Both the position numbers and the translations under genes were made by a program. Shown piece by piece: positions 18,783-45,983 of a stretch of DNA of 47,956 nt. Where the stretch lies: the NCBI GenBank assembly GCA_902774055.1, contig CACYGX010000021.1, forward strand, positions 1-47,956, in the 5' to 3' direction. The notes below the pieces were generated by a model. The model was not told the origin of the DNA, did no database searches, and saw nothing but the letters and a program-made list of their open reading frames with translations. This stretch comes from an uncultured Bacteroidales bacterium (GTDB lineage: Bacteria > Bacteroidota > Bacteroidia > Bacteroidales > Muribaculaceae). Position 1 is the stretch's first letter. Every line of letters starts with the position of its first letter.

Positions 18783-20786
18783 ATGAAATTTAAGATTTTG
18801 TTAGTTGTGGCTCTAGCTGCGGTAAGTGGCATGTTAACACGTGCCGGTGTGATTGGCGCCAATGATGCTCGTGGCATTGCATTAGAGGTTTTGTCACAGC
18901 GTCAAGGTGGAAACCGATTGAACAGCAATCAGGGTGACATTCAATTAACCCACACCCGTTACTCGTCATTGTCACCAACAATGCCTGTTTTATACATCTT
19001 CAATGATGACAAGAATGGCGGTTGGGTGATTGTGGCGGCCGAGGACCGCGCAGAACGCGTTTTGGGATATAACCTGAGTGGAAAATTTGACGCCGAGGCA
19101 ATGCCTTGTAATGTGAGCGCATGGCTTGACGAGTATGGTAGTCAGATAGAACACCTCCAACTAAATCCCCAACTGGCTACAACACCCACTGTACAGGGTA
19201 CACGTCTAGCCAGTTTACCTGACATCAGTCCTCTCGTTAAATCGACATGGGATCAAGGATCTCCCTATAACACCCAATGCCCAAAGATCAGTTACTCATA
19301 TCCTTTAGTGGGATGTACGGCCACAGCGATGGCACAGGTCATGTATTACTACAAGTATCCCACTAGTGCATGTTTGGAAATACCATCTTATGTTACCTCT
19401 ACTAAAAAAATGACTGTGCAGGCCCTGCCCGCAACAACATTTGATTGGGATAATATGATGGACTCCTATAGCGGCTCATATAACAGTGCCAATAAAGCAG
19501 CTGTCGCCACGTTGAGTCGTTATAGTGGGCAGGCGGTATGCATGGACTACGGCTTGAACAGCAGCGGGGCATACATTGAACTGATACCCTATGCCCTTGT
19601 GCACTTTTTTGGCTACGATAAGCTTGAACCTGCTCATATGGAGATTAGGGAAAAATATGACGATGAGACCTGGACACAAATGCTTCATGAAGAATTGTCA
19701 AAAGGGCATCCATTGCCCTATTCAGGCAATAACGGCAGTAGCGGAGGTCATTCCTTTATCGTTGATGGCTATCGCAATGGCAGTTTTCACTTGAATTGGG
19801 GCTGGAGTGGTAATTATGACGGATATTTTCAGCTCTCAGCATTCACGCCTTCCACTCATGATTACACGCAGTCGCACAGGGCTGTCTTTGGTATTGAACG
19901 CTCACGTGCCGATCTCAATAGCGATGGCATGATAACCATTGCTGACATTTCAGTGCTGATTGATATGTTATTAGGCATTGTTCCATCTACATCTCAAAGC
20001 GTTGGAGATGTCAATCTTGATGGAACGGTAAGTATAAAAGACGTGTCGGTGTTAATCGATAAACTCTTGGGTGATTCAGAATCAGAAGTTAATTCTGTCA
20101 CTTATACAGTCAATGGCGTTAGCTTCAAAATGGCCTTGGTTGAAGGCGGCACCTTCATGATGGGTGCGACAGCCGAACAAGGGACAGAAGTAGCGGAAGA
20201 TGAATTTCCGGTTCATCAAGTGACACTTTCTTCTTTCTATATCGGCACTACCGAGGTGACTCAGGAACTATGGCAGGCTGTCATGGGCACGAACCCGGGT
20301 GTGATTCCTGGTCCCACTTTGCCTGTCAACAAAGTGAGCTGGGACGATTGCCAACAGTTTATTGCTAAATTGAACACGCTGACTGGAAAACAATTCCGCC
20401 TGCCCACAGAATCCGAATGGGAGTTTGCTGCCAGAGGAGGTGTGAAGAGCCGCGGTTACAAGTACGCTGGCAGTAATGATTTGGCTGCAGTGGCTTGGTA
20501 TGGAGAGAACGCAGGAGCTTCTTTTTGCATGGAAGTTGGTCTTAAGGCTCCAAATGAATTGGGATTATATGACATGAGCGGGAATGTCAGTGAATGGTGC
20601 AGTACTTATTGGGCCGATTACCTCTCGACTGCTCAAACCAATCCCCAGGACCCCGTTACTGGAACCCATCGGTTGTGCCGTGGTGGTAACTGGTATTTTG
20701 AGTCTGATTATTGCCGTGTTTCAAATCGAACCTACTCAACTCCTGATAATGCGACCTCTATCATTGGGCTGCGATTGGCATTATGA
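18783..20786 (+). CDS. Secreted C10 (streptopain-like) protease - dockerin - FGE-fold protein, copy 1
   Basis: A predicted extracellular cysteine protease of 667 residues. Layout: signal peptide 1-21; C10 prodomain/Spi inhibitor-like region about 22-135; peptidase domain about 150-375 with Cys178 (VGCTATAMAQ), His323 (GGHSFIVDGY) and Asn338 (HLNWGW). A dockerin pair follows at 376-430 (ADLNSDGMITIADISVLID and DVNLDGTVSIKDVSVLID). An FGE-sulfatase (SUMF1/C-type-lectin-fold) domain spans about 440-667, with EVTQELWQAVMG, RLPTESEWEFAARGG and LYDMSGNVSEWC. In the FGE domain, Phe639 replaces the first catalytic Cys while Cys644 remains, so oxidase activity is unlikely and a binding role is plausible. 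First of three tandem paralogues. Confidence 0.92.
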   Translation: MKFKILLVVALAAVSGMLTRAGVIGANDARGIALEVLSQRQGGNRLNSNQGDIQLTHTRYSSLSPTMPVLYIFNDDKNGGWVIVAAEDRAERVLGYNLSGKFDAEAMPCNVSAWLDEYGSQIEHLQLNPQLATTPTVQGTRLASLPDISPLVKSTWDQGSPYNTQCPKISYSYPLVGCTATAMAQVMYYYKYPTSACLEIPSYVTSTKKMTVQALPATTFDWDNMMDSYSGSYNSANKAAVATLSRYSGQAVCMDYGLNSSGAYIELIPYALVHFFGYDKLEPAHMEIREKYDDETWTQMLHEELSKGHPLPYSGNNGSSGGHSFIVDGYRNGSFHLNWGWSGNYDGYFQLSAFTPSTHDYTQSHRAVFGIERSRADLNSDGMITIADISVLIDMLLGIVPSTSQSVGDVNLDGTVSIKDVSVLIDKLLGDSESEVNSVTYTVNGVSFKMALVEGGTFMMGATAEQGTEVAEDEFPVHQVTLSSFYIGTTEVTQELWQAVMGTNPGVIPGPTLPVNKVSWDDCQQFIAKLNTLTGKQFRLPTESEWEFAARGGVKSRGYKYAGSNDLAAVAWYGENAGASFCMEVGLKAPNELGLYDMSGNVSEWCSTYWADYLSTAQTNPQDPVTGTHRLCRGGNWYFESDYCRVSNRTYSTPDNATSIIGLRLAL

Positions 20787-20804
20787 CGTGTTAGTTGATG
20801 ATAA

Positions 20805-20832
20805 TTGGCGGTATTCATTAAGGAAATTTTCT
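20805..20832 (+). repeat. Conserved spacer element in the C10 array, occurrence 1
   Basis: A 28-nt stretch containing ggcggtattcattaaggaaa, identical to 22885-22912 and located between a stop and the next C10 start. It is more conserved than parts of the coding sequence. It may be only a relic of duplication or may affect expression of the next copy. Confidence 0.7.
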
Positions 20833-20853
20833 ATCACTTAACTATAAACTAGT

Positions 20854-22866
20854 ATGAGAACTAGAATTTTACTCATTGCGTCCCTAGTTGCTCTTGCGGC
20901 AACGAGTGGTGTGTTTGTAGCTCATGCCGGTGTGATTGGCACCAATGATGCTCGTGGCATTGCATTAGAAGTATTGTCACAGCGCCAAGGTGGAAACCGA
21001 TTGAACAGCAGCCAGAGTGACATACAGTTAACTCACACCCGTTACTCGTCATTGTCACCAACAATGCCTGTTTTATACATCTTCAATGATGACAAGAATG
21101 GCGGTTGGGTGATTGTGTCTGCCGAGGACCGCGCCCGGCACGTTTTGGGATATAACCTGAGTGGAAAATTTGACGCCGATGCAATGCCGTGTAATGTGAG
21201 CGCATGGCTTGACGAGTATGGCAGTCAGATAGAAAAGCTTCAAATGAATCCCCAACTGGCTACAAAACCAGCCGTCAAGAACCCTCGCTTGGCAAGTCTA
21301 TCCAACATTGATCCTCTCATCACATCCACTTGGAATCAGAGTTATCCCTTTAACGACCAATGTCCAACAATATCTGATGAATATCCTTATGCAGGATGTA
21401 CAGCCATCGCCATGGCTCAAGTTATGAACTACTACAAGTATCCCACAAGTTCATGCTTGGCAATTCCGTCCTATGTTACTAAAACCAAAAAAGTGACTGT
21501 GCCGGCTCTGCCTCCAACAACATTTGATTGGGGAAATATTTTGGACTCCTACTTTGAATCATTTACCGATGACAATGTAAATGCTGTCGCTAAATTGATA
21601 CGTTACTGCGGACAAGCGGTATGCATGGACTACGGTTTGGGCAGCAGCGCGGCCTATCTTGAACTGATTCCCTATGCACTTGGATATTTTTTTGGTTACG
21701 ATAAGAAGGACCCGGCTCACATATATACCAGGTCGAGATATAGCGATGAGACTTGGACACTAATGCTTTATGAGGAGTTGTTAAAAGGACACCCGCTGCC
21801 TTATGCTGGCAATAATGGTAGTAGTGGCGGTCATTCTTTCGTCGTTGACGGTTATCGCGATGGCAGTTTTCACTTGAATTGGGGCTGGAAAGGTAGTTTT
21901 GATGGATATTTTCAACTTTCAGCCTTTACACCGGGAGGCCAAAATTACACTCAATCTCATAGGGCCGTCTTTGGAATTGACCGTTATCGTGACGATGTCA
22001 ATGGTGATGGTGAAGTGAGTGTAGCCGATGTCAACGCTGTGATTAATTTTATACTGGCAGGTGATACAGATCTAAGAGGTGATGTGAATGCCGATAACGA
22101 GGTGAATATCGCCGATTTTAACGCTGTGATTAATACTATCTTGGAAGGCAACTCATCACCCTCTGACCAAGTCGCTGAGACGTATACCGTCAACGGCATC
22201 AGCTTTAAAATGGTCAAGGTTGAAGGTGGTACCTTCATGATGGGCGCAACTGAAGAACAAGGAGCGGGAGTATCGTCCAACGAGAAACCTGTTCATCAAG
22301 TTACACTCTCCACTTTCTATATCGGCAGCACCGAAGTGACACAAGAACTCTGGCAGGCTGTCATGGGTAATTATCCGAGTGTGATTCTTGGACCCACTTT
22401 GCCTGTTAACAAAGTGAGCTGGGACGATTGCCAGCAGTTCATTGCTAAATTGAACACATTGACTGGAAAGCAATTCCGCCTGCCCACTGAATCTGAGTGG
22501 GAATTTGCCGCCAGGGGTGGTGTAAAAAGCGCTGGCTACAAGTATGCAGGCAGCAATGATTTAGCGTCAGTGGGTTGGTATGAGGAGAATGCAGGGGATT
22601 CTTATGGCATGGAAGTCGGCTTGAGGGCTCCTAACGAATTGGGCTTGTATGACATGAGTGGAAATGTTTGTGAATGGTGCGCGACTTATTGGGGTGGCTA
22701 CCCCTCAAGTGCCCAAACCGATCCTCAGGGTCCCACCTCGGGAACCTATCGGGTCTATCGCGGTGGCAATTGGTATTCTAATGCAAGCTTCTGCCGCGTT
22801 GCAAGACGTAATGGTGCAACTCCCGATTATTTGTCTTCTGTCATTGGCTTTAGGTTGGCATTATGA
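20854..22866 (+). CDS. Secreted C10 (streptopain-like) protease - dockerin - FGE-fold protein, copy 2
   Basis: 670 residues with the same layout as its neighbours: signal peptide 1-25, C10 prodomain about 26-140, peptidase domain with Cys182 (AGCTAIAMAQ), His327 (GGHSFVVDGY) and Asn342. The dockerin at about 380-432 is of a different class (DVNGDGEVSVADVNAVIN and DVNADNEVNIADFNAVIN) from copies 1 and 3. It is closer to that of the S8 protease starting at 33711. The FGE-fold domain spans about 443-670; Ser642 stands where the first catalytic Cys is expected and Cys647 is retained. All protease catalytic residues are intact, so it is probably active. Substrates are unknown. Confidence 0.92.
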   Translation: MRTRILLIASLVALAATSGVFVAHAGVIGTNDARGIALEVLSQRQGGNRLNSSQSDIQLTHTRYSSLSPTMPVLYIFNDDKNGGWVIVSAEDRARHVLGYNLSGKFDADAMPCNVSAWLDEYGSQIEKLQMNPQLATKPAVKNPRLASLSNIDPLITSTWNQSYPFNDQCPTISDEYPYAGCTAIAMAQVMNYYKYPTSSCLAIPSYVTKTKKVTVPALPPTTFDWGNILDSYFESFTDDNVNAVAKLIRYCGQAVCMDYGLGSSAAYLELIPYALGYFFGYDKKDPAHIYTRSRYSDETWTLMLYEELLKGHPLPYAGNNGSSGGHSFVVDGYRDGSFHLNWGWKGSFDGYFQLSAFTPGGQNYTQSHRAVFGIDRYRDDVNGDGEVSVADVNAVINFILAGDTDLRGDVNADNEVNIADFNAVINTILEGNSSPSDQVAETYTVNGISFKMVKVEGGTFMMGATEEQGAGVSSNEKPVHQVTLSTFYIGSTEVTQELWQAVMGNYPSVILGPTLPVNKVSWDDCQQFIAKLNTLTGKQFRLPTESEWEFAARGGVKSAGYKYAGSNDLASVGWYEENAGDSYGMEVGLRAPNELGLYDMSGNVCEWCATYWGGYPSSAQTDPQGPTSGTYRVYRGGNWYSNASFCRVARRNGATPDYLSSVIGFRLAL

Positions 22867-22884
22867 TGTGTTAATTGATGATTC

Positions 22885-22912
22885 TTGGCGGTATTCATTA
22901 AGGAAATTTTCT
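22885..22912 (+). repeat. Conserved spacer element in the C10 array, occurrence 2
   Basis: Identical over 28 nt to 20805-20832, in the equivalent position between copies 2 and 3. The spacer then continues to ttaactatataatatt before the copy 3 ATG. Confidence 0.7.
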
Positions 22913-22934
22913 AACAATTTAACTATATAATATT

Positions 22935-24950
22935 ATGAGAAATAGAATCTTGTTTATTATGGCACTTGTTGTTCTTGCAGCAACAAGCGGTGTGTTTGTA
23001 GCACATGCTAGTGTGATTGGCGCCAATGATGCTCGTGGCATTGCATTAGAGGTTTTGTCACAGCGTCAAGGTGGAAACCGATTGAACAGCAATCAGAGTG
23101 ACATTCAATTAACCCACACCCGTTATTCGACATTGTCACCAACTATGCCTGTATTTTACATCTTCAATGATGACAAGAATGGCGGTTGGGTGATTGTATC
23201 TGCCGAGGACCGCGCCCAGCACGTTTTGGGATATAATCTGAGTGGAAAATTTGACGCCGAGGCAATGCCTTGCAATGTGAGCGCATGGCTTGACGAGTAT
23301 GGTAGTCAGATAGAACACCTCCAACTGAATCCCCAACTGGCAACCAAGCCATCCATTCAGGGCGCACGCTTGGCCAGTCTTTCCAACATTGATCCTCTCA
23401 TCACTACAACATGGAATCAGGGTTATCCCTATCACGAGCAGTGTCCCAAAATCAATAATGAATATCCTTATACGGGATGTACGGCCACCGCATTTGCTCA
23501 GATCATGAATTATTACAAGTATCCCACTAGTGCATGTGCGGCCATTCCGTCTTATATTACTAAAACAGTGGGGATGACTGTGCCTGAGTTGCCTGCAACA
23601 ACATTTGATTGGGATAATATGTTGGACTCTTATAGCGGCTCATACACCAATGCCAATAAAGACGCTGTTGCTAAGTTGATGCGTTATTGCGGACAGGCGA
23701 CATGCATGGATTACACTTTAAGCAGTAGCGCGGCTTATATTGAACTGATACCCTATACTATTAGCTACTATTTCGGTTATGATAAGCTTGATCCCGCCCA
23801 TATGGAGGCTAGGGAAAGATTCGATGATGAAATATGGACGCAAATGGTACATGACGAGTTGTCAAAAGGGCGCCCATTAGCCTATGCTGGCGGCAACGAC
23901 AATGGTGGTGCCCATACTTTCATTGTTGACGGTTATCGCAATGGCGATTTTCACTTGAATTGGGGTTGGGGTGGTCGATTTGACGGTTATTTTCAGCTCT
24001 CGGCTTTCACACCCTCCACTCATGATTACACCAAGTCCCACAGAGCCGTTTTCGGCATTGTTCCAAAACGTGCCGATATCAATGGTGATGGCATGATAAA
24101 CATTGCTGACCTTTCGGTGCTGATTGATATGCTGTTGGGGATTGTTCCTACCACATCTCAGACTGTCGGGGACATCGATCTTGATGGAACGGTAGCCATA
24201 AGTGACGTTTCGGCGTTAATTGACAAACTCTTGGGCGATACAGAATCTGCAGGAAGTATTGAAACATATACCGTCAACGGCGTCAGCTTTAAAATGGTTA
24301 AGGTTGACGGCGGCACCTTCATGATGGGCGCGACTCCCGAACAAGGGGAAGAAGCATCGTCCAACGAGAAACCAGTTCATCAAGTGACACTCTCCTCTTT
24401 CTATATCGGCAGTACCGAGGTGACACAGGAACTCTGGCAGGCTATCATGGGGAATAATCCGAGTGTGATTCCTGGCTGTACTTTGCCCGTCAATAGAGTG
24501 AGCTGGGACGATTGCCAGCAGTTCATTACTAAATTGAACACGCTGACTGGAAAGCAATTCCGCCTGCCCACCGAATCGGAGTGGGAGTTTGCCGCCCGAG
24601 GTGGTGTGAAAAGTGCTGGCTACAAGTATGCGGGCAGCAATGTTCTAGCGTCAGTAGGTTGGTATGATGAAAACGCGTGGGCTTCCTATTGCATGGAAGT
24701 TGGCCTGAAGGCTCCTAACGAATTGGGTTTGTATGACATGAGTGGAAATGTCAGTGAATGGTGCGCTACCTATTGGGGTGGGTACTCATCGACAGCACAA
24801 ACCGATCCACAGGGCCCCACTTCGGGAACCTATCGAATTTATCGCGGTGGCAGTTGGTATATTGAAGCCAACAATTGCCGCGTTGCAAGACGTATGGGTA
24901 CAACTCCCGAAAAAGCGACTTCTCTCATTGGCCTGAGGTTGGCATTATGA
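22935..24950 (+). CDS. Secreted C10 (streptopain-like) protease - dockerin - FGE-fold protein, copy 3
   Basis: 671 residues: signal peptide 1-25, C10 prodomain about 26-140, peptidase domain with Cys182 (TGCTATAFAQ), His327 (GGAHTFIVDGY) and Asn342. The glycine-rich loop before the catalytic His is rewritten (GGNDNGGAH here, GNNGSSGGH in copies 1 and 2), so substrate access may differ. The dockerin pair at about 379-434 is of the copy-1 class (DINGDGMINIADLSVLID and DIDLDGTVAISDVSALID). The FGE-fold domain at about 443-671 has Ile643 in place of the first catalytic Cys and keeps Cys648. A strong hairpin terminator follows, closing the array. Confidence 0.92.
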   Translation: MRNRILFIMALVVLAATSGVFVAHASVIGANDARGIALEVLSQRQGGNRLNSNQSDIQLTHTRYSTLSPTMPVFYIFNDDKNGGWVIVSAEDRAQHVLGYNLSGKFDAEAMPCNVSAWLDEYGSQIEHLQLNPQLATKPSIQGARLASLSNIDPLITTTWNQGYPYHEQCPKINNEYPYTGCTATAFAQIMNYYKYPTSACAAIPSYITKTVGMTVPELPATTFDWDNMLDSYSGSYTNANKDAVAKLMRYCGQATCMDYTLSSSAAYIELIPYTISYYFGYDKLDPAHMEARERFDDEIWTQMVHDELSKGRPLAYAGGNDNGGAHTFIVDGYRNGDFHLNWGWGGRFDGYFQLSAFTPSTHDYTKSHRAVFGIVPKRADINGDGMINIADLSVLIDMLLGIVPTTSQTVGDIDLDGTVAISDVSALIDKLLGDTESAGSIETYTVNGVSFKMVKVDGGTFMMGATPEQGEEASSNEKPVHQVTLSSFYIGSTEVTQELWQAIMGNNPSVIPGCTLPVNRVSWDDCQQFITKLNTLTGKQFRLPTESEWEFAARGGVKSAGYKYAGSNVLASVGWYDENAWASYCMEVGLKAPNELGLYDMSGNVSEWCATYWGGYSSTAQTDPQGPTSGTYRIYRGGSWYIEANNCRVARRMGTTPEKATSLIGLRLAL

Positions 24951-24976
24951 TGTGTTAATTGCAGTTTGAGATAAGA

Positions 24977-33710: not shown

Positions 33711-35741
33711 ATGAAAAAGATTACTCTATTAATCACAATGATTGTCGCCATGTTATGTTCGTCGCAATCGATTTGCGCCCAAAACAATTCCGGCGACTAC
33801 TATGATGCCTTTATCGAGGTAGAACAGTTGAACGAACTGTTGCTGTATCGTCTCAACGAAGCAGGAGTGACCATCACTTCGAGATTTGATGGTTTCGTTG
33901 CTGCCAGAATCAATGCCGATGTTGAACCTTCAACGATTATGGCCATTGATGGCGTGAAGTATGTGACCAGGGCAACCTATGTCGAGACTTGTTCCGATAG
34001 TGCCCGCTATTTCTCCAATGTGGATCCCGTGCAACTGGGCACAGGGCTCGACATGCCTTACACGGGTAAAGGCGTGATTATCGGTTTAATAGACTGCGGT
34101 TTTGATTTCAACCACATTAACCTGTGTGATGAAGAGGGCAACACGCGTGTCAAGGCTGTGTATATGCCCTTCGACAATAGCGGCACACCTCCAGTCGTCA
34201 GAGCGACCCGCTTGCCGGGTAGTTGCTATGAAAAGCCCGAGGAAATTAGGAACCTGACAACCGATGACCCTTCAACGCCTCACGGCACCCAGACGGCTGG
34301 TATTGCCGCCGGATCATATCGTGATAACGGTTGGTATGGTATGGCTCCCGAGGCCGATATCGTTGCTTGTGGCATCCCCGAGAGCGAACTCAACGATGTC
34401 GTGGTCGCCAATTGCATCAGTTACCTGTGTGATTATGCCAGCCGCAAGGGTCAGCCCTGTGTCATCAATATGAGTCTAGGCACCATTATCGGCCCCCACG
34501 ATGGCACTTCCTACATGAACCGCATTTGTCAACAGTTGTCTGCTCCGGGACGTGTATTTGTCGTATCGGGCGGCAATGATGGCGATAACAATGTGTATGT
34601 CCACCGCATGCTTGAGAACAGTCAAGATACAGTGACTGTGCTGCTGCGCGGTGTATGGGGCAGCACCGAACTCACAGGCAATATCAATGCATGGAGTAAG
34701 GTGAATAAAGCATTTAACACAAGGCTCGTTGTCGTGGACACCCAGTCCAAGGAGATTGTTTATGGCACCCGTGCCTATGGCGCTGTTTCTCAAGGCTCCT
34801 ACGCTGAATACTCTACCGAAACCGATACGCTGCTCGCCGAGTACTGTACGGGTCGTGTCTCGCTGAGAGGTACTGTTGATTATAATGGCAAGCCATATTC
34901 ACTTTGTAATATCGACATGAAGTCCAATTCCAGCAGATATGCTGTTGGACTCCAATACTATGCTCCGTCGAGCAATGAGTTGTCTATCTGGACTTCATGG
35001 TATGCCCACTTCTACCAGCATGGCGTGACTTGGGCTGATAGGGGCGACATACACGGTTCAATCAGCGACTTTGCAACGACCGATAGCGTGATTTCGGTTG
35101 GTAACTATAACTCGAAGCAATATGTCATCTTGCGAGATAGCACACTCTTCTTCCGCCAGAACAGTGTACCCTTGCTGCTTTCTCACAATTCTTCATACGG
35201 CCCTGACGAGAATGGTGTTACACGTCCTGACGTGTGCGCTCCTGGCAGTGTGATTGTCGCTTCGGCTAACCGCTATGACCTTTATCCTCACAACTTGGCC
35301 TACTGGCAACCATCAGCCTTTGTTGACGGTGTGGAATATCCCTACTGCCCCGATATGGGTACTTCGATGTCGGCAGCGGTAGTATCAGGAACTGTGGCAC
35401 TGTGGATGCAGGCTAACCCCAATCTGAGTGCCGCCGACGTGCGCGACATCTTGCGTCACTCGAGTTACAAAGATTCTATCGTGAAGAATGGTGACCCCGA
35501 GATGTGGGGAACGGGTAAACTTGACGCCTTGGCTGGCATGCGCTATATCCTTCACATGGATGAGTTGATTGGCGACGTGAACAATGATGGCGAGGTGACC
35601 ATTAGCGACGTCAACTTGGCCATTAACATTATCCTGGGTGGAGATGCCGATGACCAGACCCGATCAAGAGCTGATGTGAACAAGGATGGTGAGATTGGCA
35701 TCAGCGATGTCAATGTTATCATTAACATCATCTTGAGTTAA
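33711..35741 (+). CDS. Secreted S8 (subtilisin-like) serine protease with C-terminal dockerin pair, copy 1
   Basis: 676 residues with a signal peptide (1-23, ending ICAQ) and a prodomain-like region about 30-110. The catalytic triad is Asp128 (GLIDCGFDFNH), His191 (PHGTQTAG) and Ser552 (MGTSMSAAVVSG); the oxyanion Asn289 is in SGGNDGD. The domain has a long insert between Asn289 and Ser552. Two usual positions are altered: DCG in place of D-T/S-G, and SMSAAV in place of SMSAPV. The dockerin at 620-676 (DVNNDGEVTISDVNLAIN and DVNKDGEIGISDVNVIIN) ends the protein. No T9SS sorting domain follows. The next gene starts 3 bp after the stop. Confidence 0.93.
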   Translation: MKKITLLITMIVAMLCSSQSICAQNNSGDYYDAFIEVEQLNELLLYRLNEAGVTITSRFDGFVAARINADVEPSTIMAIDGVKYVTRATYVETCSDSARYFSNVDPVQLGTGLDMPYTGKGVIIGLIDCGFDFNHINLCDEEGNTRVKAVYMPFDNSGTPPVVRATRLPGSCYEKPEEIRNLTTDDPSTPHGTQTAGIAAGSYRDNGWYGMAPEADIVACGIPESELNDVVVANCISYLCDYASRKGQPCVINMSLGTIIGPHDGTSYMNRICQQLSAPGRVFVVSGGNDGDNNVYVHRMLENSQDTVTVLLRGVWGSTELTGNINAWSKVNKAFNTRLVVVDTQSKEIVYGTRAYGAVSQGSYAEYSTETDTLLAEYCTGRVSLRGTVDYNGKPYSLCNIDMKSNSSRYAVGLQYYAPSSNELSIWTSWYAHFYQHGVTWADRGDIHGSISDFATTDSVISVGNYNSKQYVILRDSTLFFRQNSVPLLLSHNSSYGPDENGVTRPDVCAPGSVIVASANRYDLYPHNLAYWQPSAFVDGVEYPYCPDMGTSMSAAVVSGTVALWMQANPNLSAADVRDILRHSSYKDSIVKNGDPEMWGTGKLDALAGMRYILHMDELIGDVNNDGEVTISDVNLAINIILGGDADDQTRSRADVNKDGEIGISDVNVIINIILS

Positions 35742-35744
35742 TCA

Positions 35745-37853
35745 GTGAAGCGTCGGATACTGATATGCTTTATGTTGCTACTCGCCTGCGCATGTGCCCA
35801 GGCGAGTAGCAATTTGAGTGCGGCCTCCAAGGTCTTGCTCAAGCAATATCATGCAACCGCCGCGCACAAAGCCCCATGTGATAATTCTCTTTTTCAAGCA
35901 TTTATCGCCATAAATGATATCGGTGTGATTGACTCATTGCGATCGAGTGGGGTGATCATTGGTAGCGTGTTTGATGGCTTTGTAACCGCCCAGATTCCTC
36001 TGCGCACGATGAGGCAGATTGCAAACCTTCATGGCGTGAAACACATCTCACTGGGACGCCAACTCACCCTGTGCAACGATAGTGCCCGCTTTTATTCCAA
36101 TGTGGATCAGGTTCATCATGCGGCAGGCCTCATTGCGCCCCTGACCGGGCGTGGTGTGATTGTGGGCATGATTGACACGGGGTTTGATTTCAATCATATT
36201 AACCTGTGTGATGAAAATGGCAATTCGCGTGTCAAGGCCGTCTATCTGCCTTGTGATAGCAGTGGGGTGAAAACGACGATTGACGGTGACACTTTGCCTG
36301 GCAGTTGCTATGAGACGCCAGAGATGATTGCGGCACTCACGACCGATAATCCTCATTCCTCCCATGGGACTCACACGACAGGCACCGCTTCAGGCAGTTA
36401 CTTGCCAAATGGCTTGTATGGGGTGGCACCAGAGGCCGACATCGTCGCTTGCGGCATGCCTTCTGAGGAACTGAATGATGTCAACTTAGCCAATAGTGTG
36501 CGCTACATTTTTGATTATGCCGACAGGGTGGGGAAGCCATGCGTTATCAATATGAGTCTGGGCAGCAATGAAGGCCCCAATGACGGCACTTCATATCTGT
36601 GTAAGACCTTCGAGTCTTTATCTGGTCCAGGACGCATTTGTGTGCTATCGGCTGGAAATGACGGTTTTGCGCCGATTTGTTTTCACAAGGACCTCATGGG
36701 AATTGGCGACACGGTAACAACCTTGTTGCGCAACCGTTGGGGTGGAGGACAGCGCGAGGGATATGTCAGCATGTGGAGCGATGGCCCTCAGGAGCATAGC
36801 TCACGTGTTGTTGTCATCAATCGCCAATCAGGAGAGATAGAATATGCCTCCCCTGTGGTGGGAGTGTTGGCCGAGGACAGCGTCTTCACCATTGATAGTG
36901 ACGTGGATGCTGACTTTGCTGCTTTTTACACGGGCACAATGACTTATGCCAGCGCGGTCGAGCACTTGCAATCCAGCGAAGAGTCTAGTGTTGACCACTT
37001 TCATTCCTACTGGATATTTGACGCGACTTCTATTCAATCTGGCCATCTGTTGGGACTTCAGTATATGTCCGACAATCAGACCAAGTTGTCGGGGTGGTGC
37101 ACTAGCGATACCTATTTCTATACATTTGACCTTCCCGGCATGACAGGAGGGTCTCCATCAGGGTCTATTAGCGACTTGGCTACGACTGATAGTGTCATCT
37201 CAGTAGGCGCTTTTTCATCCCGCCGCAGTTATGTCAACAAGGACGGAGAACCCCAGTCGGTTTACTTGAGTTTCCCGACCGATATCGCCTATTTTTCATC
37301 CTATGGCCCCGATGAACGGGGTGTTTCCAGGCCCGACATCGTTGCTGCTGGCAATGCATTACTCTCATCGGCCAACCGTTATGACGTTGAGGCAACTCAA
37401 GTCAACTGGGTGAAGCCTGTTGAGGTAAATGGCACCCAATATCCTTATTATGCCAACCAGGGCACTTCGATGTCGGCCCCAGTTGTCTCAGGAACCATCG
37501 CACTGATGCTGCAGTTGAATCCCACACTCTCGCCATCTGATGTGCGTACCGTCATGAGTGCAACAGCCGTCAAGGACTCCCATGTAATGGCTGGTGATTC
37601 AGAGCGATGGGGCTATGGTAAGTTGGACGCCAGTGCCGCTGTTGATTACGTCATGAGCAACACACTGTTACGCGGTGATGTCAATGATGACGGCGAGGTG
37701 ACCATTGCCGACGTCTTGGCACTGATTGATATCGTGCTGAGGTCATCATCGCAGGCCGATGCGGTGACTCTCATCCGGGCAGATGTCAATCGGGACTGTG
37801 AAATCCAGATTGCAGATGTCAATTGTTTAATAGACTTGATATTAAAAAGTTAA
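35745..37853 (+). CDS. Secreted S8 (subtilisin-like) serine protease with C-terminal dockerin pair, copy 2
   Basis: 702 residues from a GTG start, chosen because it lies 3 bp after the previous stop and gives a signal peptide (MKRRILICFMLLLACACAQA). The catalytic residues are Asp144 (GMIDTGFDFNH), His207 (SHGTHTTG) and Ser575 (GTSMSAPVVSG), with oxyanion Asn305 (SAGNDGF), all canonical. The prodomain-like region and much of the catalytic core are homologous to copy 1. The C-terminal dockerin at 643-702 has DVNDDGEVTIADVLALID and DVNRDCEIQIADVNCLID; a Cys replaces a usual calcium-loop residue and the glycine in repeat 2. Co-transcribed with copy 1 and probably with ruvA. Confidence 0.93.
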   Translation: MKRRILICFMLLLACACAQASSNLSAASKVLLKQYHATAAHKAPCDNSLFQAFIAINDIGVIDSLRSSGVIIGSVFDGFVTAQIPLRTMRQIANLHGVKHISLGRQLTLCNDSARFYSNVDQVHHAAGLIAPLTGRGVIVGMIDTGFDFNHINLCDENGNSRVKAVYLPCDSSGVKTTIDGDTLPGSCYETPEMIAALTTDNPHSSHGTHTTGTASGSYLPNGLYGVAPEADIVACGMPSEELNDVNLANSVRYIFDYADRVGKPCVINMSLGSNEGPNDGTSYLCKTFESLSGPGRICVLSAGNDGFAPICFHKDLMGIGDTVTTLLRNRWGGGQREGYVSMWSDGPQEHSSRVVVINRQSGEIEYASPVVGVLAEDSVFTIDSDVDADFAAFYTGTMTYASAVEHLQSSEESSVDHFHSYWIFDATSIQSGHLLGLQYMSDNQTKLSGWCTSDTYFYTFDLPGMTGGSPSGSISDLATTDSVISVGAFSSRRSYVNKDGEPQSVYLSFPTDIAYFSSYGPDERGVSRPDIVAAGNALLSSANRYDVEATQVNWVKPVEVNGTQYPYYANQGTSMSAPVVSGTIALMLQLNPTLSPSDVRTVMSATAVKDSHVMAGDSERWGYGKLDASAAVDYVMSNTLLRGDVNDDGEVTIADVLALIDIVLRSSSQADAVTLIRADVNRDCEIQIADVNCLIDLILKS

Positions 37854-38510: not shown

Positions 38511-41500
38511 ATGTTGAACCGAAAAAAAATATTTTTTGCTATCATCATTGGTACGCTCATCGGTATTTGGGCGGGTCATGACACCGTGTTGGCTCAATAT
38601 GTGACCAGCACTTTGCCACCACCTCCGCCGCCCCCCGACACGCGTCCCTCGGCTCAGCGCATGCAGACGCCATCACTGGACCTGCAATTTAACGTAAAAC
38701 CCACAATACCCCAGAACTATAACGACATTCAAGGCACAGAGGAGTATTCTGCCGACCTGAAAACGCCGTCCAACATCACCTCGGAGGTCGAGTTTGACCC
38801 CGAGACAGGATGCTATGTCATCCACACACGACTGGGTGACCATGATATTGTCACTCCCTATATCATGTCGGCTGACGAATACAGCAATATGGATTTCAGG
38901 AAGTCGATGATGGAGTACTACCGCCAGAAGAATGCCGAGAATGCCCAAGATAAGGAAAAAGATCCGTTCAATTTCCTGGATATGCAGTTTGGAATGGGAC
39001 CCCTCGAGAAAGTGTTCGGCCCTGGTGGTGTTCAGCTCAAGACGACAGGTTCTGTAGTCATCAAAATGGGTGTTAAAAGCAATTCTACCGATAACCCTGC
39101 ATTGTCGGTAGCCCAGCGCAAAAAGACCTATTTTGACTTCGAGCAGAAGATTCAGGCCAATATCGCTGCTACAGTAGGCGACAAGATGCGCTTTAACATG
39201 TCTTATAATACTGGCGCGACATTTGACTTTGACAGTAAGAACCTGAAATTGGCCTACGAGGGCAAGGAGGATGAGATCATCAAGGAACTTGAGGCTGGTA
39301 ATGTGAGCATGACGACCGGTTCACAGCTGATTCGTGGTAGTGCTGCCCTGTTTGGTATAAAGACGAAACTGCAATTTGGCAAACTTACCGCCACGGCATT
39401 GGTTTCTCAACAGAATAGTGAGTCCCAGACCGTGAGCAGCAAGGGTGGATCGCAAACCACCGAATTCCACATTTCGGCCGACAAGTATGACCAGAACCGA
39501 AACTTCTTCCTCTCGCATTTCTTCCGTGACCACTACGACGAATGGTGCACCAGGTTGCCGCAGCCTAATTCGGGCATTCATATTACTGATATCCAGGTAT
39601 GGATTACCAACAAGCGCAATAACTATAATGAATCGCGCAACATCATGGCATTCATGGACATCGGTGAGGGCGACGAGCGCAACATTTGCAACAGTCACTG
39701 GACAGGAAATCCATTGATACCACCTCAAAACGAGTCAAATAACCTGTGGAGGGATATTGATACCCAATACCCAGATGCCCGATACAAAAGCATGGCTTCG
39801 GACGCATTATCACCGTTGAAGGAAGCCTATGGTTTTGAGGGTGGTAAGGATTATGAAATCATCGAGAGTGCGCGACTGCTTAACTCTTCAGAATATACCT
39901 TGAACGCCTCTCTGGGCTACATCATGCTCAAGACGGCTCTTGCTAGTGACGAAATCCTTGCCGTAGCCTATAAGTACACCTATAATGGAGAGTCTTTCCA
40001 GGTCGGCGAGTTCTCTAGTGATATCAATTCAACAGAGCAGTCACTGTATGTCAAGATGCTCAAGGGAACAACATCTTCGCCCTACTATCCCATGTGGGAT
40101 TTGGCTATGAAGAACGTGTATGCCCTGGGTGCTTATCAGGTTCAGAAAAACAATTTCAAACTCAATATCAAGTATCTGAGTGATACCACAGGTAGTGAGT
40201 TGATTTACATTCCTGAAGGCAAAATTAATGGAACCCCTCTGCTTCAGGTCATGAACCTTGACCGCTTGGACGCTAATCAGGAGCCAAATATCGATGGTCG
40301 TTTCGACTACATAGAGGGTTATACTGTACAATCTTCAACAGGTAAAATCATTTTCCCCGTTGTTGAGCCGTTTGGCGAACACTTGCGCAAAAAGTTCGAG
40401 AATGACGAAATTGCGAAAAAGTATATTTACACCGAGCTCTATGACTCGACATTGACTGTCGCTCAACAGTTTAGTGAAAAGAATAAGTTTATTCTTGTCG
40501 GTGAATATCAGTCGAGTTCGGGTAGTGTTATCCGCTTGAATGCCACAAATGTGGCACGTGGTTCGGTGGTCGTGACTGCGGCCGGTCAAACACTTACCGA
40601 GAACAGCGACTATACCGTCGATTACACGATGGGTACCGTGACGATTACCAATCAGAGCATTATCGACGCTGGTACCAACATCAGTGTATCGCTTGAGAAC
40701 CAGTCCACCTTCAGCATGCAACGCAAAACGCTGCTGGGCCTTGACCTGGATTATGCTTTCAACAAGGATTTCCATATCGGTGCTACCGTGATGCACTATG
40801 GCGAGAAAGCTATTGGTGATAAGGTAGCGATCGGTAATGAGTTGGTCAATAACACCATTTGGGGTGCAAATTTGTCTTACAATACCCAATTCATGTGGTT
40901 GACCAACCTGCTCAATAAGATTCCCACGGTTAATGCGGTAGCGCCATCGACCTTGAACTTCAGGGGTGATTTTGCTCAGTTGGTGCCTCATCAGGCCTCA
41001 ACGGGTTCTAACTCTGGTAGTTCCTATATCGATGACTTTGAATCGACCCAATCTGGTATTGACCTGCGCTCGCCCTTCTCTTGGTTCCTCGCCTCGACAC
41101 CCTATGACCCCTCGGCTGACGCCTTGTTCCCCGAGGCCGGATGGAGCAAGAATGTCGATTATGGCAAGAACCGTGCACTCATCTCATGGTACACTGTGGA
41201 CCGCTTGTTCACCCAGCGTAATTCCTCGTATGCGCCAGGTTATATCAAGAATGACCTTGAGGCATTGTCATATCCCTACGCCCGTGAGGTGGCATTCAGC
41301 GAGGTGTTCCCGGGACGTGAGCTCAACTATGGCGAGTCGTCTGTTGTCCAGACACTCAACGTTTCTTTCTATCCCAATGAGCGCGGCCCGTATAACTTAG
41401 ATGCCGAGAGACTTACCCCCGATGGTTATCTGCTTAATCCCGAGAAGCGTTGGGGTGGTCTCATGCGCAAGATTGATAACACCAACTTCGAGCAATCCAA

Positions 41501-44500
41501 TATCGAGTATATCCAGTTCTGGATGCTGGATCCCTTTATGGATAAGGATAATTTGCACAACGAGGAGGGTGGTGACCTCTATTTCAACTTGGGTGAAATC
41601 AGCGAGGACATCCTCAAGGATGGACTCAAGAGCTATGAGAATGGTCTTCCCATTAATGGTGACAGCACTTATGTATCCTCCACCATTTGGGGTAAGGTGG
41701 CTACTCAGTCCTCATTAACCTATGCTTTTGATAACACCAATGGTGCCCGCATCTTGCAAGACGTGGGTCTTGATGGGCTGACAGATGCCGAGGAGATGAA
41801 GCATGAGACTTATGCCAAGTTCCTTAGAGAATTGGAAACTAATTTCCCATCGGCATGGGCTGCGATGCAGGATGACCCATTCTCTCCGCGCAATGACCCA
41901 GCGAGCGATAACTACGGCTTCTACCGTAACAATTATTATGACTTGATTAAGGCCACGATTAACGACCGTTACAAGCACTATAATGGCACTGATGGCAACT
42001 CGTTGTCTCAGACTGACGCTGCTGATGGTCAGTACCAGTCGGCTCGTTCAACGCCTGATGTTGAGGATATCAACCAGGACAATACCCTTAACGAGTATGA
42101 GCGCTACTTCGAGTATAAAGTGTCGATTCGTCCCGAAGACATGAAGGAGGTGGGTACGAACTTCATCACTGACAAGCAGATTGCCAGCGTTCATACCCGC
42201 AATGGTCAGACGCAGTTAGCAACTTGGTACCAGTTTACCATACCCTTGTCTAATTTCACCAAGAAGGTGGGTAATATCCAGGACTTCTCCACCATCCGTT
42301 TCTTGCGCATGTACATGACGGGCTTCAAGGGGACGACCCATTTGCGTTTTGCCTCACTGGAATTGGTACGTGGCGAGTGGCGCAACTACAAGTATAACTT
42401 GAACCTGCGTGGTGAAGTGCCCGCCAATGGCTCTATCAGCATCAACTCGGTAAACATCGAGGAGAATGCATCGCGCGAGCCTGTCAACTACGTGCTGCCT
42501 CCTGGCGTGTCTCGTATCATCGACAGCGGTCAGTCACAAATCACCCAGCTCAACGAGCAGTCCATGCAGCTCACCGTTGCCGACCTTGACGCCGGTGATG
42601 CCCGTGGTGTGTATCGCAATACGGAACTTGACCTGCGCACCTACAAGCGCTTGCAGATGTTTGTCCACAACGAGGCTACCGTTGACGATGAGACCAACCT
42701 GCGCAATGGCGACGTGTCGTTGTTCATTCGCTTGGGCTCTGATGTTAAGAATAACTACTACGAGTATGAGATTCCCTTGACGGTAACTCCTCCTGGCCGT
42801 TACAGCACCAACAGCTCCGCCGACCGTCTCAAGGTTTGGCCAGCCGAGAACTTGCTGGACATCAATCTTGATGTGCTCGTCAATGCCAAGAAGCACCGCA
42901 ATGCCGACAAGCTGGCTGGAGTTGAGGGAGTAGGCTATGGTGTGCGTTATCTGGATTATGATGAGGCACATCCCAACAACAAGATTTATGTGATTGGTAA
43001 CCCCTCGTTGAGTAAGGTGCGCGTGATGCTCATCGGTGTGCGCAACAATTCGCCGACGACCAAGAGTTGTGTCGTTTGGGTTGACGAGTTGCGCGTAACC
43101 GACTTTGATAGCGAGGGCGGATGGGCTGCTAAAGCTACCATGACGCTTGGCATGAGCGATATCGCTACTGTAAATATGGGATTCCACAAGGAGACAGCGG
43201 GATTTGGTTCGGTTGACCAGAGCCTGTCCATGCGTCGCCTGGACAATTATGACCAGTATAACATCGCTGTGCAGTCCGACTTGGGACGCTTTATCCCCGA
43301 GAAAGTCAAACTGCACGCCCCCATCTACTATTCTTACAGCAACGAGAAAACCACGCCCAAGTACAATCCTCTCGACCAGGACGTGAAGCTCAAGGAATCT
43401 CTTGACGGATGTGAGACAAAGGAACAGAAGGATAGCGTCATGAACTATGCTGTCACCCAGCGCACCGCTAAGAACTTCTCTATCTCGGGTCTCAAGTTTG
43501 ATGTCAAGACGATGAAGGACCCCATGCCTTGGGATCCCGCAAACTTCTCCTTCAGCTACTCGTTCAACAAGCAGCACTTGAATGATCCCGATAATGTATA
43601 TGAGAACACCAACGACTATCGTGGTAGCATGCAGTATAGCTGGACGCCCTATATCAAGCCGTTCAAGCCGTTCTCACGCTTCATTAACGAGAAAAACAAG
43701 AATATGAAGTTCTTCCGTGACTGGGAGTTGCACTGGTTACCGACAAATATCTCCTTCGGCACGAACATTTCGCGTTACTACTATGAGCAGCAAACGCGCA
43801 ATGAGACGGGAATCGATGTAGAGTTGCCGGTTGCCGTCAGCAAGAACTTCTTGTGGGACCGTCAATTTGCCCTCAGCTGGAACTTTACCAAATCCCTCAC
43901 AGTGTCGTTCAACAGCAATACGACAGCCCACATCCTTGAGCCTGTGGGTCAGGTGAACCGCAAACTCTTACCTGATAAGTATCGCAACTGGAAGGATTCC
44001 GTCATGAATTCGATTAAGGACCTGGGTACTCCGTGGGCCTACAACCAGTCATTCAGCCTCTCCTATAAGGCGCCGCTGAGTCAGATTCCCATCTTGAGCT
44101 GGATCACCGCCAACCTGTCCTATAGCTCAACCTACCGTTGGGACCGTGGTACTGTTATCGACAGTATCTCATCGGGCAACTCGATTGCCAGTCAGGCAGT
44201 CCGCTCGATTGATGGCCGCTTCAATTTTGAGCAGTTCTACTCTAAGGTGCCCTATCTCAAGAAAATTGAGGAACGTTTCTCGTCCAAGAGCAGCAAACGC
44301 TCGCAGCCGGCCAAGAAGGAAAAGCCCAAGAAGTTTAGCCGCACCATCAAGTTGAGTCCCGACAGCGCTGTCGTGATCAATCACAAACTTGGTGTCAAGA
44401 AGGTTAAGGTAACGGCTAGCACTACCGACGACAAGCCATTCAAGGTGGAGTATAAGGTAAAGGATAAAGACAATGTTGAGATCACGACATTGGGCGAAGA

Positions 44501-45983
44501 GAACCTCAAGTTCACCATCACTGAGATTCAAGGTGAGGATCGCCACAACTTCTTTACCGAGGCGGCCCAGTACATGACTCGTGTCCTGATGAGCGTTCGC
44601 AATGTTAACGTGCGCTGGAAAAAGACCACTTCGCTCTCAGTGCCTCAGTTCATACCTGAGATTGGTGATGCCTTTGGTCAAACCAACCGCTACGATATCA
44701 TGGCGCCGGGTCTTGACTTCGCTTTTGGCTTTGCAGGCCAGTCCTACATCGAGAAAGCGAAGAGACATGACTGGCTCATTGGTAACCCAACCCAGACCAC
44801 CCCAGCTATTTATGGTTCTACCCAGGAACTTAATGCTGAGGTTCAGTTGGAGCCGATATCCGGTCTCAAGATTACGCTGACTGGTAACCGTACCGACAAC
44901 CGTACCAACCAGATCCAGTTCATGTTTGATAATCCCATGATTCAATACGGTGGTAGTTATACCAAAACCCATATTGCGATGGCCACGGCCATGAAGGCTG
45001 TCAAGGCGACCGATAATTACCACAGTGACGTGTTTGATAAGTTCATCGAGAACATTCCCATTATTACCGACCGCCTGAGGCAACAGTACTATGGCTCTAC
45101 CTATCCCGATGCTGGCTTCACGAGGAAAAACGGTATGGCGGGTAACCCCTTCGATGTCAATAATGGTGATGTCAATCCGTCGAGTAGTGATGTGCTCATC
45201 CCTGCCTTCATGGCAGCCTATTCGGGCAAGAATGCCAAGTCGGTCAATCTGAGTCCGTTCCCCGGAATTAAGGATATTTTGCCCAACTGGCGCATTACTT
45301 ATGACGGTCTGATGAGGATTCCGTTCTTCAAGAGGGTTTTCAAGTCATTCGCGCTCAATCATGCTTATCAGTGTGTTTACACTGTGGGTGCCTATAATTC
45401 ATTCAACGATTGGGTAACCATTGGCAACGGCCTTGGCTTCATTGAGGATGTGCGCTCTAAACAAGCCATTCCGTCATCGCCCTATAATATCGCGTCGGTC
45501 ACCTTGACCGAGAAGTTTGCGCCTCTCATCGGCTTCAATGCAACCTTATTAAACGATATTTCGCTGAATGTGCAGTATGAAAACCAACGCACATTGACGC
45601 TCAACTCATCGGCAGGACAGCTTGTCGAGGCAGCTTCTACTTCGTTTGTCGTGGGTGCCAGCTACAAGATTGCTAATTTCAATCAGGTGCTCAAGCTCAA
45701 GACCAAGCAGCAGAATGTGAACAACGACCTCACGCTCACGTTCAACGCCAAGATGTCGAGCAACACGGCTCTGATTCGCAAGTTTGAGACCCAGACCGCT
45801 CAGCCGACCAACGGAACCAAGACCTGGAGCATTAACTTCACAGCGAACTATGTGGTGAGCAAGCGCATCACAATGGGTGCCTACTTTGACTACATATCCA
45901 ATATTCCGCTCGTCTCCACGTCGTCCTATCCCACCACGAACAGCAATTATGGTTTGACTATCAACATGTCGCTCGTGAAGTAA
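38511..45983 (+). CDS. sprA: Type IX secretion system outer-membrane translocon protein SprA (Sov)
   Basis: SprA is the very large outer-membrane beta-barrel that forms the T9SS translocation pore. The 2490 residues fit the family's usual 2300-2500. The N-terminus has a signal peptide (residues 1-30, ending VLAQ) followed by a run of seven prolines. Family-typical segments include LDLQFNVKPTIPQNYNDI, GPGGVQLKTTGSVVIKMGV near residue 167, and SYIDDFESTQSGIDLRSPFS near 840. The C-terminus ends as a barrel strand (SNYGLTINMSLVK). It lies between ruvA and an EpsG-like gene. Other T9SS core genes (porK-N, sprE, sprT, porV) are not in the window. Confidence 0.95.
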   Translation: MLNRKKIFFAIIIGTLIGIWAGHDTVLAQYVTSTLPPPPPPPDTRPSAQRMQTPSLDLQFNVKPTIPQNYNDIQGTEEYSADLKTPSNITSEVEFDPETGCYVIHTRLGDHDIVTPYIMSADEYSNMDFRKSMMEYYRQKNAENAQDKEKDPFNFLDMQFGMGPLEKVFGPGGVQLKTTGSVVIKMGVKSNSTDNPALSVAQRKKTYFDFEQKIQANIAATVGDKMRFNMSYNTGATFDFDSKNLKLAYEGKEDEIIKELEAGNVSMTTGSQLIRGSAALFGIKTKLQFGKLTATALVSQQNSESQTVSSKGGSQTTEFHISADKYDQNRNFFLSHFFRDHYDEWCTRLPQPNSGIHITDIQVWITNKRNNYNESRNIMAFMDIGEGDERNICNSHWTGNPLIPPQNESNNLWRDIDTQYPDARYKSMASDALSPLKEAYGFEGGKDYEIIESARLLNSSEYTLNASLGYIMLKTALASDEILAVAYKYTYNGESFQVGEFSSDINSTEQSLYVKMLKGTTSSPYYPMWDLAMKNVYALGAYQVQKNNFKLNIKYLSDTTGSELIYIPEGKINGTPLLQVMNLDRLDANQEPNIDGRFDYIEGYTVQSSTGKIIFPVVEPFGEHLRKKFENDEIAKKYIYTELYDSTLTVAQQFSEKNKFILVGEYQSSSGSVIRLNATNVARGSVVVTAAGQTLTENSDYTVDYTMGTVTITNQSIIDAGTNISVSLENQSTFSMQRKTLLGLDLDYAFNKDFHIGATVMHYGEKAIGDKVAIGNELVNNTIWGANLSYNTQFMWLTNLLNKIPTVNAVAPSTLNFRGDFAQLVPHQASTGSNSGSSYIDDFESTQSGIDLRSPFSWFLASTPYDPSADALFPEAGWSKNVDYGKNRALISWYTVDRLFTQRNSSYAPGYIKNDLEALSYPYAREVAFSEVFPGRELNYGESSVVQTLNVSFYPNERGPYNLDAERLTPDGYLLNPEKRWGGLMRKIDNTNFEQSNIEYIQFWMLDPFMDKDNLHNEEGGDLYFNLGEISEDILKDGLKSYENGLPINGDSTYVSSTIWGKVATQSSLTYAFDNTNGARILQDVGLDGLTDAEEMKHETYAKFLRELETNFPSAWAAMQDDPFSPRNDPASDNYGFYRNNYYDLIKATINDRYKHYNGTDGNSLSQTDAADGQYQSARSTPDVEDINQDNTLNEYERYFEYKVSIRPEDMKEVGTNFITDKQIASVHTRNGQTQLATWYQFTIPLSNFTKKVGNIQDFSTIRFLRMYMTGFKGTTHLRFASLELVRGEWRNYKYNLNLRGEVPANGSISINSVNIEENASREPVNYVLPPGVSRIIDSGQSQITQLNEQSMQLTVADLDAGDARGVYRNTELDLRTYKRLQMFVHNEATVDDETNLRNGDVSLFIRLGSDVKNNYYEYEIPLTVTPPGRYSTNSSADRLKVWPAENLLDINLDVLVNAKKHRNADKLAGVEGVGYGVRYLDYDEAHPNNKIYVIGNPSLSKVRVMLIGVRNNSPTTKSCVVWVDELRVTDFDSEGGWAAKATMTLGMSDIATVNMGFHKETAGFGSVDQSLSMRRLDNYDQYNIAVQSDLGRFIPEKVKLHAPIYYSYSNEKTTPKYNPLDQDVKLKESLDGCETKEQKDSVMNYAVTQRTAKNFSISGLKFDVKTMKDPMPWDPANFSFSYSFNKQHLNDPDNVYENTNDYRGSMQYSWTPYIKPFKPFSRFINEKNKNMKFFRDWELHWLPTNISFGTNISRYYYEQQTRNETGIDVELPVAVSKNFLWDRQFALSWNFTKSLTVSFNSNTTAHILEPVGQVNRKLLPDKYRNWKDSVMNSIKDLGTPWAYNQSFSLSYKAPLSQIPILSWITANLSYSSTYRWDRGTVIDSISSGNSIASQAVRSIDGRFNFEQFYSKVPYLKKIEERFSSKSSKRSQPAKKEKPKKFSRTIKLSPDSAVVINHKLGVKKVKVTASTTDDKPFKVEYKVKDKDNVEITTLGEENLKFTITEIQGEDRHNFFTEAAQYMTRVLMSVRNVNVRWKKTTSLSVPQFIPEIGDAFGQTNRYDIMAPGLDFAFGFAGQSYIEKAKRHDWLIGNPTQTTPAIYGSTQELNAEVQLEPISGLKITLTGNRTDNRTNQIQFMFDNPMIQYGGSYTKTHIAMATAMKAVKATDNYHSDVFDKFIENIPIITDRLRQQYYGSTYPDAGFTRKNGMAGNPFDVNNGDVNPSSSDVLIPAFMAAYSGKNAKSVNLSPFPGIKDILPNWRITYDGLMRIPFFKRVFKSFALNHAYQCVYTVGAYNSFNDWVTIGNGLGFIEDVRSKQAIPSSPYNIASVTLTEKFAPLIGFNATLLNDISLNVQYENQRTLTLNSSAGQLVEAASTSFVVGASYKIANFNQVLKLKTKQQNVNNDLTLTFNAKMSSNTALIRKFETQTAQPTNGTKTWSINFTANYVVSKRITMGAYFDYISNIPLVSTSSYPTTNSNYGLTINMSLVK

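Follow-up and report, generated by a model that had tools for sequence, protein, structure and literature searches.

Three tandem genes for C10 protease fusions

The window analyzed here, a 47,956-nucleotide stretch of contig CACYGX010000021.1 from an uncultured Bacteroidales bacterium of the Muribaculaceae (GenBank assembly GCA_902774055.1), contains three complete open reading frames (ORFs) arranged head to tail on the forward strand, with intergenic gaps of 67 and 68 bases (Table 1). All three translations share one order of parts: a signal peptide, an Inhibitor_I69 (Spi) prodomain, a C10 cysteine protease, a dockerin pair and a C-terminal domain with the fold of the formylglycine-generating enzyme (SUMF1/FGE). 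Pfam scores ranged over the three copies from 70 to 72 bits for Inhibitor_I69 (cut-off, 25 bits), 198 to 200 for Peptidase_C10, 29 to 38 for Dockerin_1 and 149 to 153 for FGE-sulfatase, all above the respective gathering scores, with the I69 match N-terminal to C10 in each copy. Identity to copy 1 is 73% for copy 2 and 77% for copy 3; these identities, the domain matches and the catalytic residues are all above chance level. A first-pass annotation, made from the sequence alone, had described three adjacent genes of this composition, and the profile searches bore it out, including the FGE assignment on which it had made itself depend. Its start coordinate, 18783, was exact, but its end, 24961, falls 11 bases beyond the last stop codon.

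The catalytic Cys, His and Asn, the latter within an NWGW motif, are retained in every copy, as the annotation had stated, and are invariant in an alignment of 12 family members. The C10 enzymes interpain A and streptopain (SpeB) align over prodomain and protease at E-values of about 1e-42 with the Cys-His-Asn-Trp residues kept, but the alignment stops at the end of the protease; neither enzyme is known to us to have a dockerin or an FGE-fold part. By eye, the N-termini of the three copies resemble plain signal peptides and show no lipobox Cys. The same genome encodes 24 C10 proteases, 21 of them outside the window; none of these 21 has an FGE match, and 20 end, or nearly end, in a dockerin match, which in one case is weak (E = 0.0028). 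Bacteroides Bfp/Btp enzymes, according to the part of their description consulted (PMC3462683), likewise comprise several partly clustered C10 paralogues per genome with N-terminal propeptides. They are, however, predicted lipoproteins accompanied by separate staphostatin-like inhibitors, and in one of the clustered paralogues, BtpZ, the catalytic Cys is missing (PMC3462683, same part). The window copies have no lipobox Cys, lie only 67 and 68 bases apart and all retain the catalytic Cys. Elsewhere in the genome, six C10-dockerin protease genes lie on one strand within about 18 kb (L067, G000:C7:24001-44000). Another C10 gene (L077:708-3083, G000:C32) has no dockerin within its own frame, but a dockerin match follows immediately downstream in another open frame; this may reflect a frameshift or an assembly error.

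Table 1. Coordinates of the three fusion genes and their parts in the window
Feature	Position	Strand	Basis
Copy 1, 667 residues, full architecture	18783..20786	+	ORF and Pfam
Copy 2, 670 residues, same architecture	20854..22866	+	ORF and Pfam
Copy 3, 671 residues, same architecture	22935..24950	+	ORF and Pfam
Inhibitor_I69 prodomain, copy 1, residues 23-122	18849..19148	+	Pfam
Peptidase_C10, copy 1; Cys178 at 19314, His323 at 19749, Asn338 at 19794	19248..19829	+	
Dockerin pair, copy 1	19908..20069	+	Pfam
FGE-fold (TvpA-like) domain, copy 1	20130..20780	+	Pfam
Putative hypervariable recognition loop, copy 1	20688..20762	+	Alignment variability
Inhibitor_I69 prodomain, copy 2, residues 28-126	20935..21231	+	Pfam
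Peptidase_C10, copy 2; Cys182 at 21397, His327 at 21832, Asn342 at 21877	21331..21912	+	
Dockerin pair, copy 2, different sequence class	21994..22167	+	Pfam
FGE-fold (TvpA-like) domain, copy 2	22207..22860	+	Pfam
Putative hypervariable recognition loop, copy 2	22768..22842	+	Alignment variability
Inhibitor_I69 prodomain, copy 3, residues 27-126	23013..23312	+	Pfam
Peptidase_C10, copy 3; Cys182 at 23478, His327 at 23913, Asn342 at 23958	23412..23993	+	
Dockerin pair, copy 3	24072..24233	+	Pfam
FGE-fold (TvpA-like) domain, copy 3	24291..24944	+	Pfam and predicted fold
Putative hypervariable recognition loop, copy 3, residues 640-664	24852..24926	+	Within stretch aligning to TvpA variable region

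The C-terminal FGE-fold domain

With FGE-sulfatase profile scores of about 150 bits, the C-terminal region could be taken for a working oxidase that introduces formylglycine, or a comparable modification, into substrates of the protease. We consider this extremely improbable. Compared with FGE, whose copper-binding cysteine pair we take to be residues 336 and 341 of the human enzyme, the catalytic pair is incomplete: the first position holds Phe, Ser or Ile in the three copies, and only the second is Cys. This first cysteine is missing in 86 of 87 FGE domains, a set made up of the last FGE domain of 84 of 89 motif-picked ORFs together with the three copies, all of which lack it. Moreover, the nearest solved structure, both by sequence and by the predicted fold obtained for the dockerin-FGE part, is the binding protein TvpA (PDB 2y3c), a variable protein with a C-type lectin (CLec) fold. 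Since one of the two catalytic cysteines is absent, the FGE-fold region is probably a non-catalytic binding module.

Across the 87 domains, the most variable part is a C-terminal loop whose position in the alignment matches the variable region of TvpA. An FGE-type CLec fold is here combined with a variable C-terminal stretch, as in the variable proteins of diversity-generating retroelements (DGRs). TvpA of Treponema denticola is itself a single-domain retroelement target in the excerpt of its description available (PMC6328139), whereas the window domain is part of a protease chain, in a genome that yielded no retroelement. A variable FGE-type CLec domain linked to a protease is also a feature of DGR-diversified sensors, in which, within the consulted part of the source (PMC10907252), such domains occur with peptidase partners or effectors in STAND-NTPase or MoxR-type conflict systems. 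Unlike the sensors covered there, the window proteins are predicted secreted single chains built on a C10 zymogen; they lack an ATPase domain, and a DGR was not found.

Distribution, origin and mosaic divergence

Every one of the 101 genomes of the genus matched some part of the fusion protein, and full-length matches occurred in 10 of them, three in this genome and one in each of nine others. The genus search scored 11 candidates per genome; the family, order and phylum searches scored three per genome in genomes at least 80% complete, the order and phylum sets being even draws. With full-length detection limits of E = 1e-100 (family), 1e-90 (order) and 1e-80 (phylum), at which weaker fusions would be missed, 361 family genomes returned the same 10 with a full-length match, and none outside this genome was found among 393 order and 394 phylum genomes. 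Among the loci compared, ORFs combining C10 and FGE were confined to this locus and its nine orthologues. The lineage count that the first-pass annotation had proposed as a check therefore gives one genus, to which the architecture is confined within the sampled genomes. Term searches of the open-licence literature, in which other spellings may have been missed, also returned no C10, dockerin and FGE-sulfatase combination, in line with the annotation's impression that this four-part system had not been described. The parts are all known; their combination is a narrowly distributed new variant.

The nine orthologues occupy the same genomic place, with a Beta_elim_lyase-family gene upstream at nine of nine loci and a TsaD-family gene, presumably TsaB-like, downstream at eight of nine, both recognized by eye from translated starts. 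Because these related species each hold a single copy there, the term triplication used in the annotation is correct. Two of the nine recur in the metagenome-assembled genomes RUG14590 and RUG12777, each labeled uncultured Bacteroidales bacterium. In a C10 tree that includes trimmed fragments of the window copies among its rows, the fused proteases form one group (92/87) and the three copies group together beside G050 (89/75), both with moderate support.

The FGE-fold domain has many other partners. We surveyed 87 of 89 distinct ORFs picked with one FGE sequence motif from 100 loci, after dropping two that duplicated known orthologues. A dockerin is present as well in 52 of them, and the families reported for the whole set, irrespective of dockerin content and limited to 25 so that rare ones may be missing, include PEGA (10), CarboxypepD_reg (9), LRR_5 (7) and Big_2 (4). 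Many FGE relatives, among at least 80 loci found with two FGE-domain patterns, are labeled Muribaculaceae or Prevotellaceae, several of them from ruminants. Other FGE fusions in this genome involve an M6-type metalloprotease with laminin-G as well as leucine-rich repeat (LRR) and Ig-like proteins, and the genus has frequent dockerin-FGE proteins of about 310-360 residues with a signal peptide and little else. Judged by these sequence matches, the dockerin-FGE module is widespread in this group and has been shuffled among proteins, and the simplest origin of the fusion would be recombination, within the dockerin, of a C10-dockerin gene with a dockerin-FGE gene.

The three copies are mosaic in their divergence. 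Their prodomains are 93-94% identical, with 0.14-0.23 silent differences per site, and their proteases 68-72% identical, with 0.53-0.56; identity is 81-88% in the FGE core and 48-56% in the loop. The pattern in the prodomain fits gene conversion. In the dockerin, copies 1 and 3 share 79% identity, but copy 2 is only 33% identical to either; since it agrees with another dockerin of the genome at 37 of 50 residues, it was probably acquired by exchange. Between copies 2 and 3, the loop carries 18 amino-acid and 2 silent changes against 26 and 51 in the FGE core (Fisher p = 6e-6), and loop change also differs from that in the single-copy pair G082/G071 (p = 4e-5), both tests comparing regions or lineages on small counts chosen post hoc. 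For the other copy pairs, the loop-core comparison gave p = 0.025 (copies 1 and 2) and p = 0.087 (copies 1 and 3) on rounded counts.

Such an excess of amino-acid changes, in a loop at the position of TvpA's variable region, could point to a DGR rewriting the recognition loops. The remaining evidence makes this very unlikely: no reverse transcriptase (RVT_1) match was found in the genome, a 94%-complete draft, a search with the loop DNA returned only the three copies and no fourth, template-like one, adenine involvement was not significantly raised (14/20 versus 40/77, p = 0.21), and third codon positions vary too. In the genus, 67 reverse transcriptase matches occur in 43 of 101 genomes; of the 10 loci examined, nine carry a QGxxxSP motif, which to our knowledge DGR enzymes lack, and one could not be assigned. 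With 10 of the 67 covered, DGRs may occur elsewhere in the genus. We dropped the DGR reading on the missing reverse transcriptase, the missing template copy and the non-significant adenine bias.

Dockerin context and targeted proteolysis

Each copy's dockerin combines paired calcium-loop-like repeats with an above-cut-off Dockerin_1 match, as expected of type I dockerins, and could thereby dock the proteases onto a complex built on cohesins or onto a cell-surface anchor. The proposal of a surface anchor in Ruminococcus albus, where many dockerins are served by a single cohesin, offers a precedent in the portion of the source at hand (PMC6118326). In this genome, at least 151 dockerin matches (the best 150 of 247 candidates were scored) stand against one cohesin match, which reached 28.3 bits in the genome search and 24.2 bits against a cut-off of 24.1 in the protein scan, and which lies inside a protein carrying its own dockerin. 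A cohesin may have been missed, given that the genome is a 94%-complete draft. Because of this imbalance, and because 20 of the 21 other C10 proteases are dockerin-ended as well, the dockerin pair argues only weakly for a complex held by cohesin; we regard such an anchor as quite unlikely and a cellulosomal role as doubtful. Instead, the dockerin looks like a general C-terminal tag in this genome, given the scarcity of cohesins and its position: in a sample of 40 dockerin matches, taken non-randomly from two sections of the ranked list, 36 end no more than 10 residues before the stop codon. In this organism, the tag may act in sorting or attachment without a cohesin. Further dockerin matches in the window lie at 1338-1505 on the reverse strand and at 35571-35735 and 37674-37841 on the forward strand; two adjacent Peptidase_S8 (subtilase-family) proteins with C-terminal dockerins are encoded at 33711-35741 and 35745-37853 (forward strand), just upstream of ruvA and the type IX translocon gene sprA.

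We infer that targeted proteolysis is the best reading of the locus, and assign a probability of roughly 0.6 to the view that it encodes three secreted cysteine-protease zymogens, each with its own recognition domain and probably with different targets. The signal peptide would export each chain, and the I69/Spi-like prodomain would hold the C10 protease inactive until cleaved off. The dockerin pair, calcium-binding by family, could serve as a joint or tag, and the non-catalytic TvpA-like C-type lectin fold at the C-terminus would bind a ligand, keeping the protease beside its target. The fusion would have arisen a single time, when a C10-dockerin gene and a dockerin-FGE gene were joined in the forebear of a clade belonging to one gut Bacteroidales genus; the fused gene then triplicated in this species. 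Recombination would account for both the similar prodomains and the replaced dockerin, while the loops of the recognition domain drifted apart, probably toward different targets. The first-pass annotation had likewise suggested targeted proteolysis by a binding module attached to a self-inhibited protease; with TvpA as nearest structure and one cysteine lost, this suggestion stands as the best reading, its FGE-type module recast as a TvpA-like recognition fold and the surface or glycoprotein that it named as the site being one possibility.

Several points weigh against targeted proteolysis. First, instead of selecting targets, the FGE-fold domain could fix the protein to the surface of the producing cell, as a retention module and C-terminal tag after the dockerin. 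The dockerin is normally at the extreme C-terminus here, FGE directly follows it in the window proteins and in LRR-bearing and Ig-like-bearing proteins, and the short dockerin-FGE proteins are frequent in the genus, which would suit a general tag. The genome also encodes type IX secretion parts, namely SprA (in the window, 38511-45983), PorK, PorL and PorP, of which PorK shares the FGE-type fold in a predicted-fold comparison. Nevertheless, a general tag should be conserved at its docking site, which conflicts with the variability of the loop; the genome has just 11 FGE ORFs, PorK included, beside the 151 dockerin matches; and the dockerin is N-terminal in L082 and, by Pfam, absent from L081, L083 and L084. 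On balance, we think attachment rather unlikely. Neither Pfam nor NCBIfam matched a known type IX C-terminal sorting domain in any of the fusion proteins; Por_Secre_tail, the only sorting-domain type searched genome-wide, gave three matches, one above the cut-off.

Second, a full-length AlphaFold2 model built from 12 sequences had a mean predicted local distance difference test score of 44.8 and was discarded, so the domain arrangement is not given by it; the dockerin-FGE fold is a prediction for that part. Third, a direct site test for an excess of nonsynonymous over synonymous change (dN > dS) in the loop was not significant (one-sided p = 0.087) and was dropped as a stand-alone claim, and relaxed constraint would give a similar pattern. 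In the single-copy pair G082/G071 the loop shows no amino-acid and seven silent changes, and in the pair G013/G053 it is nearly conserved, with three amino-acid and four silent changes; loop change is therefore not general in the family, which suggests that loop divergence is tied to the duplication. Finally, between copies 1 and 2 and between copies 2 and 3, the dockerin differs more than the loop.

Targeted proteolysis admits a bolder version, which we put forward only tentatively: a re-targetable protease set, in which a constant, self-inhibited front end maintained by gene conversion would be paired with a fast-diverging, interchangeable lectin loop, reaching several ligands through recombination and selection. 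If this were true, one commensal would make several proteases aimed at different ligands without a retroelement. In any case, with the gene duplicated and its loop diverged, the locus provides naturally occurring versions of one protease that differ in their recognition tips, making it testable whether FGE-type C-type lectin domains steer secreted enzymes in gut Bacteroidales. These bacteria join FGE and dockerin-FGE modules to many different secreted proteins, and we found no described role for the modules in the literature examined.

Two further arrangements of the FGE-fold domain were observed. The M6-type metalloprotease with laminin-G and FGE-fold parts (L081:890-4696, G000:C5; 1268 residues) is a second protease-FGE fusion, involving another protease class. 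In other Bacteroidales (L165, L121, L152 and L131), FGE-fold domains form tandem or multi-domain arrays with divergent C-terminal loops, L165 comprising three FGE-fold genes and L131 three motif copies in one chain.

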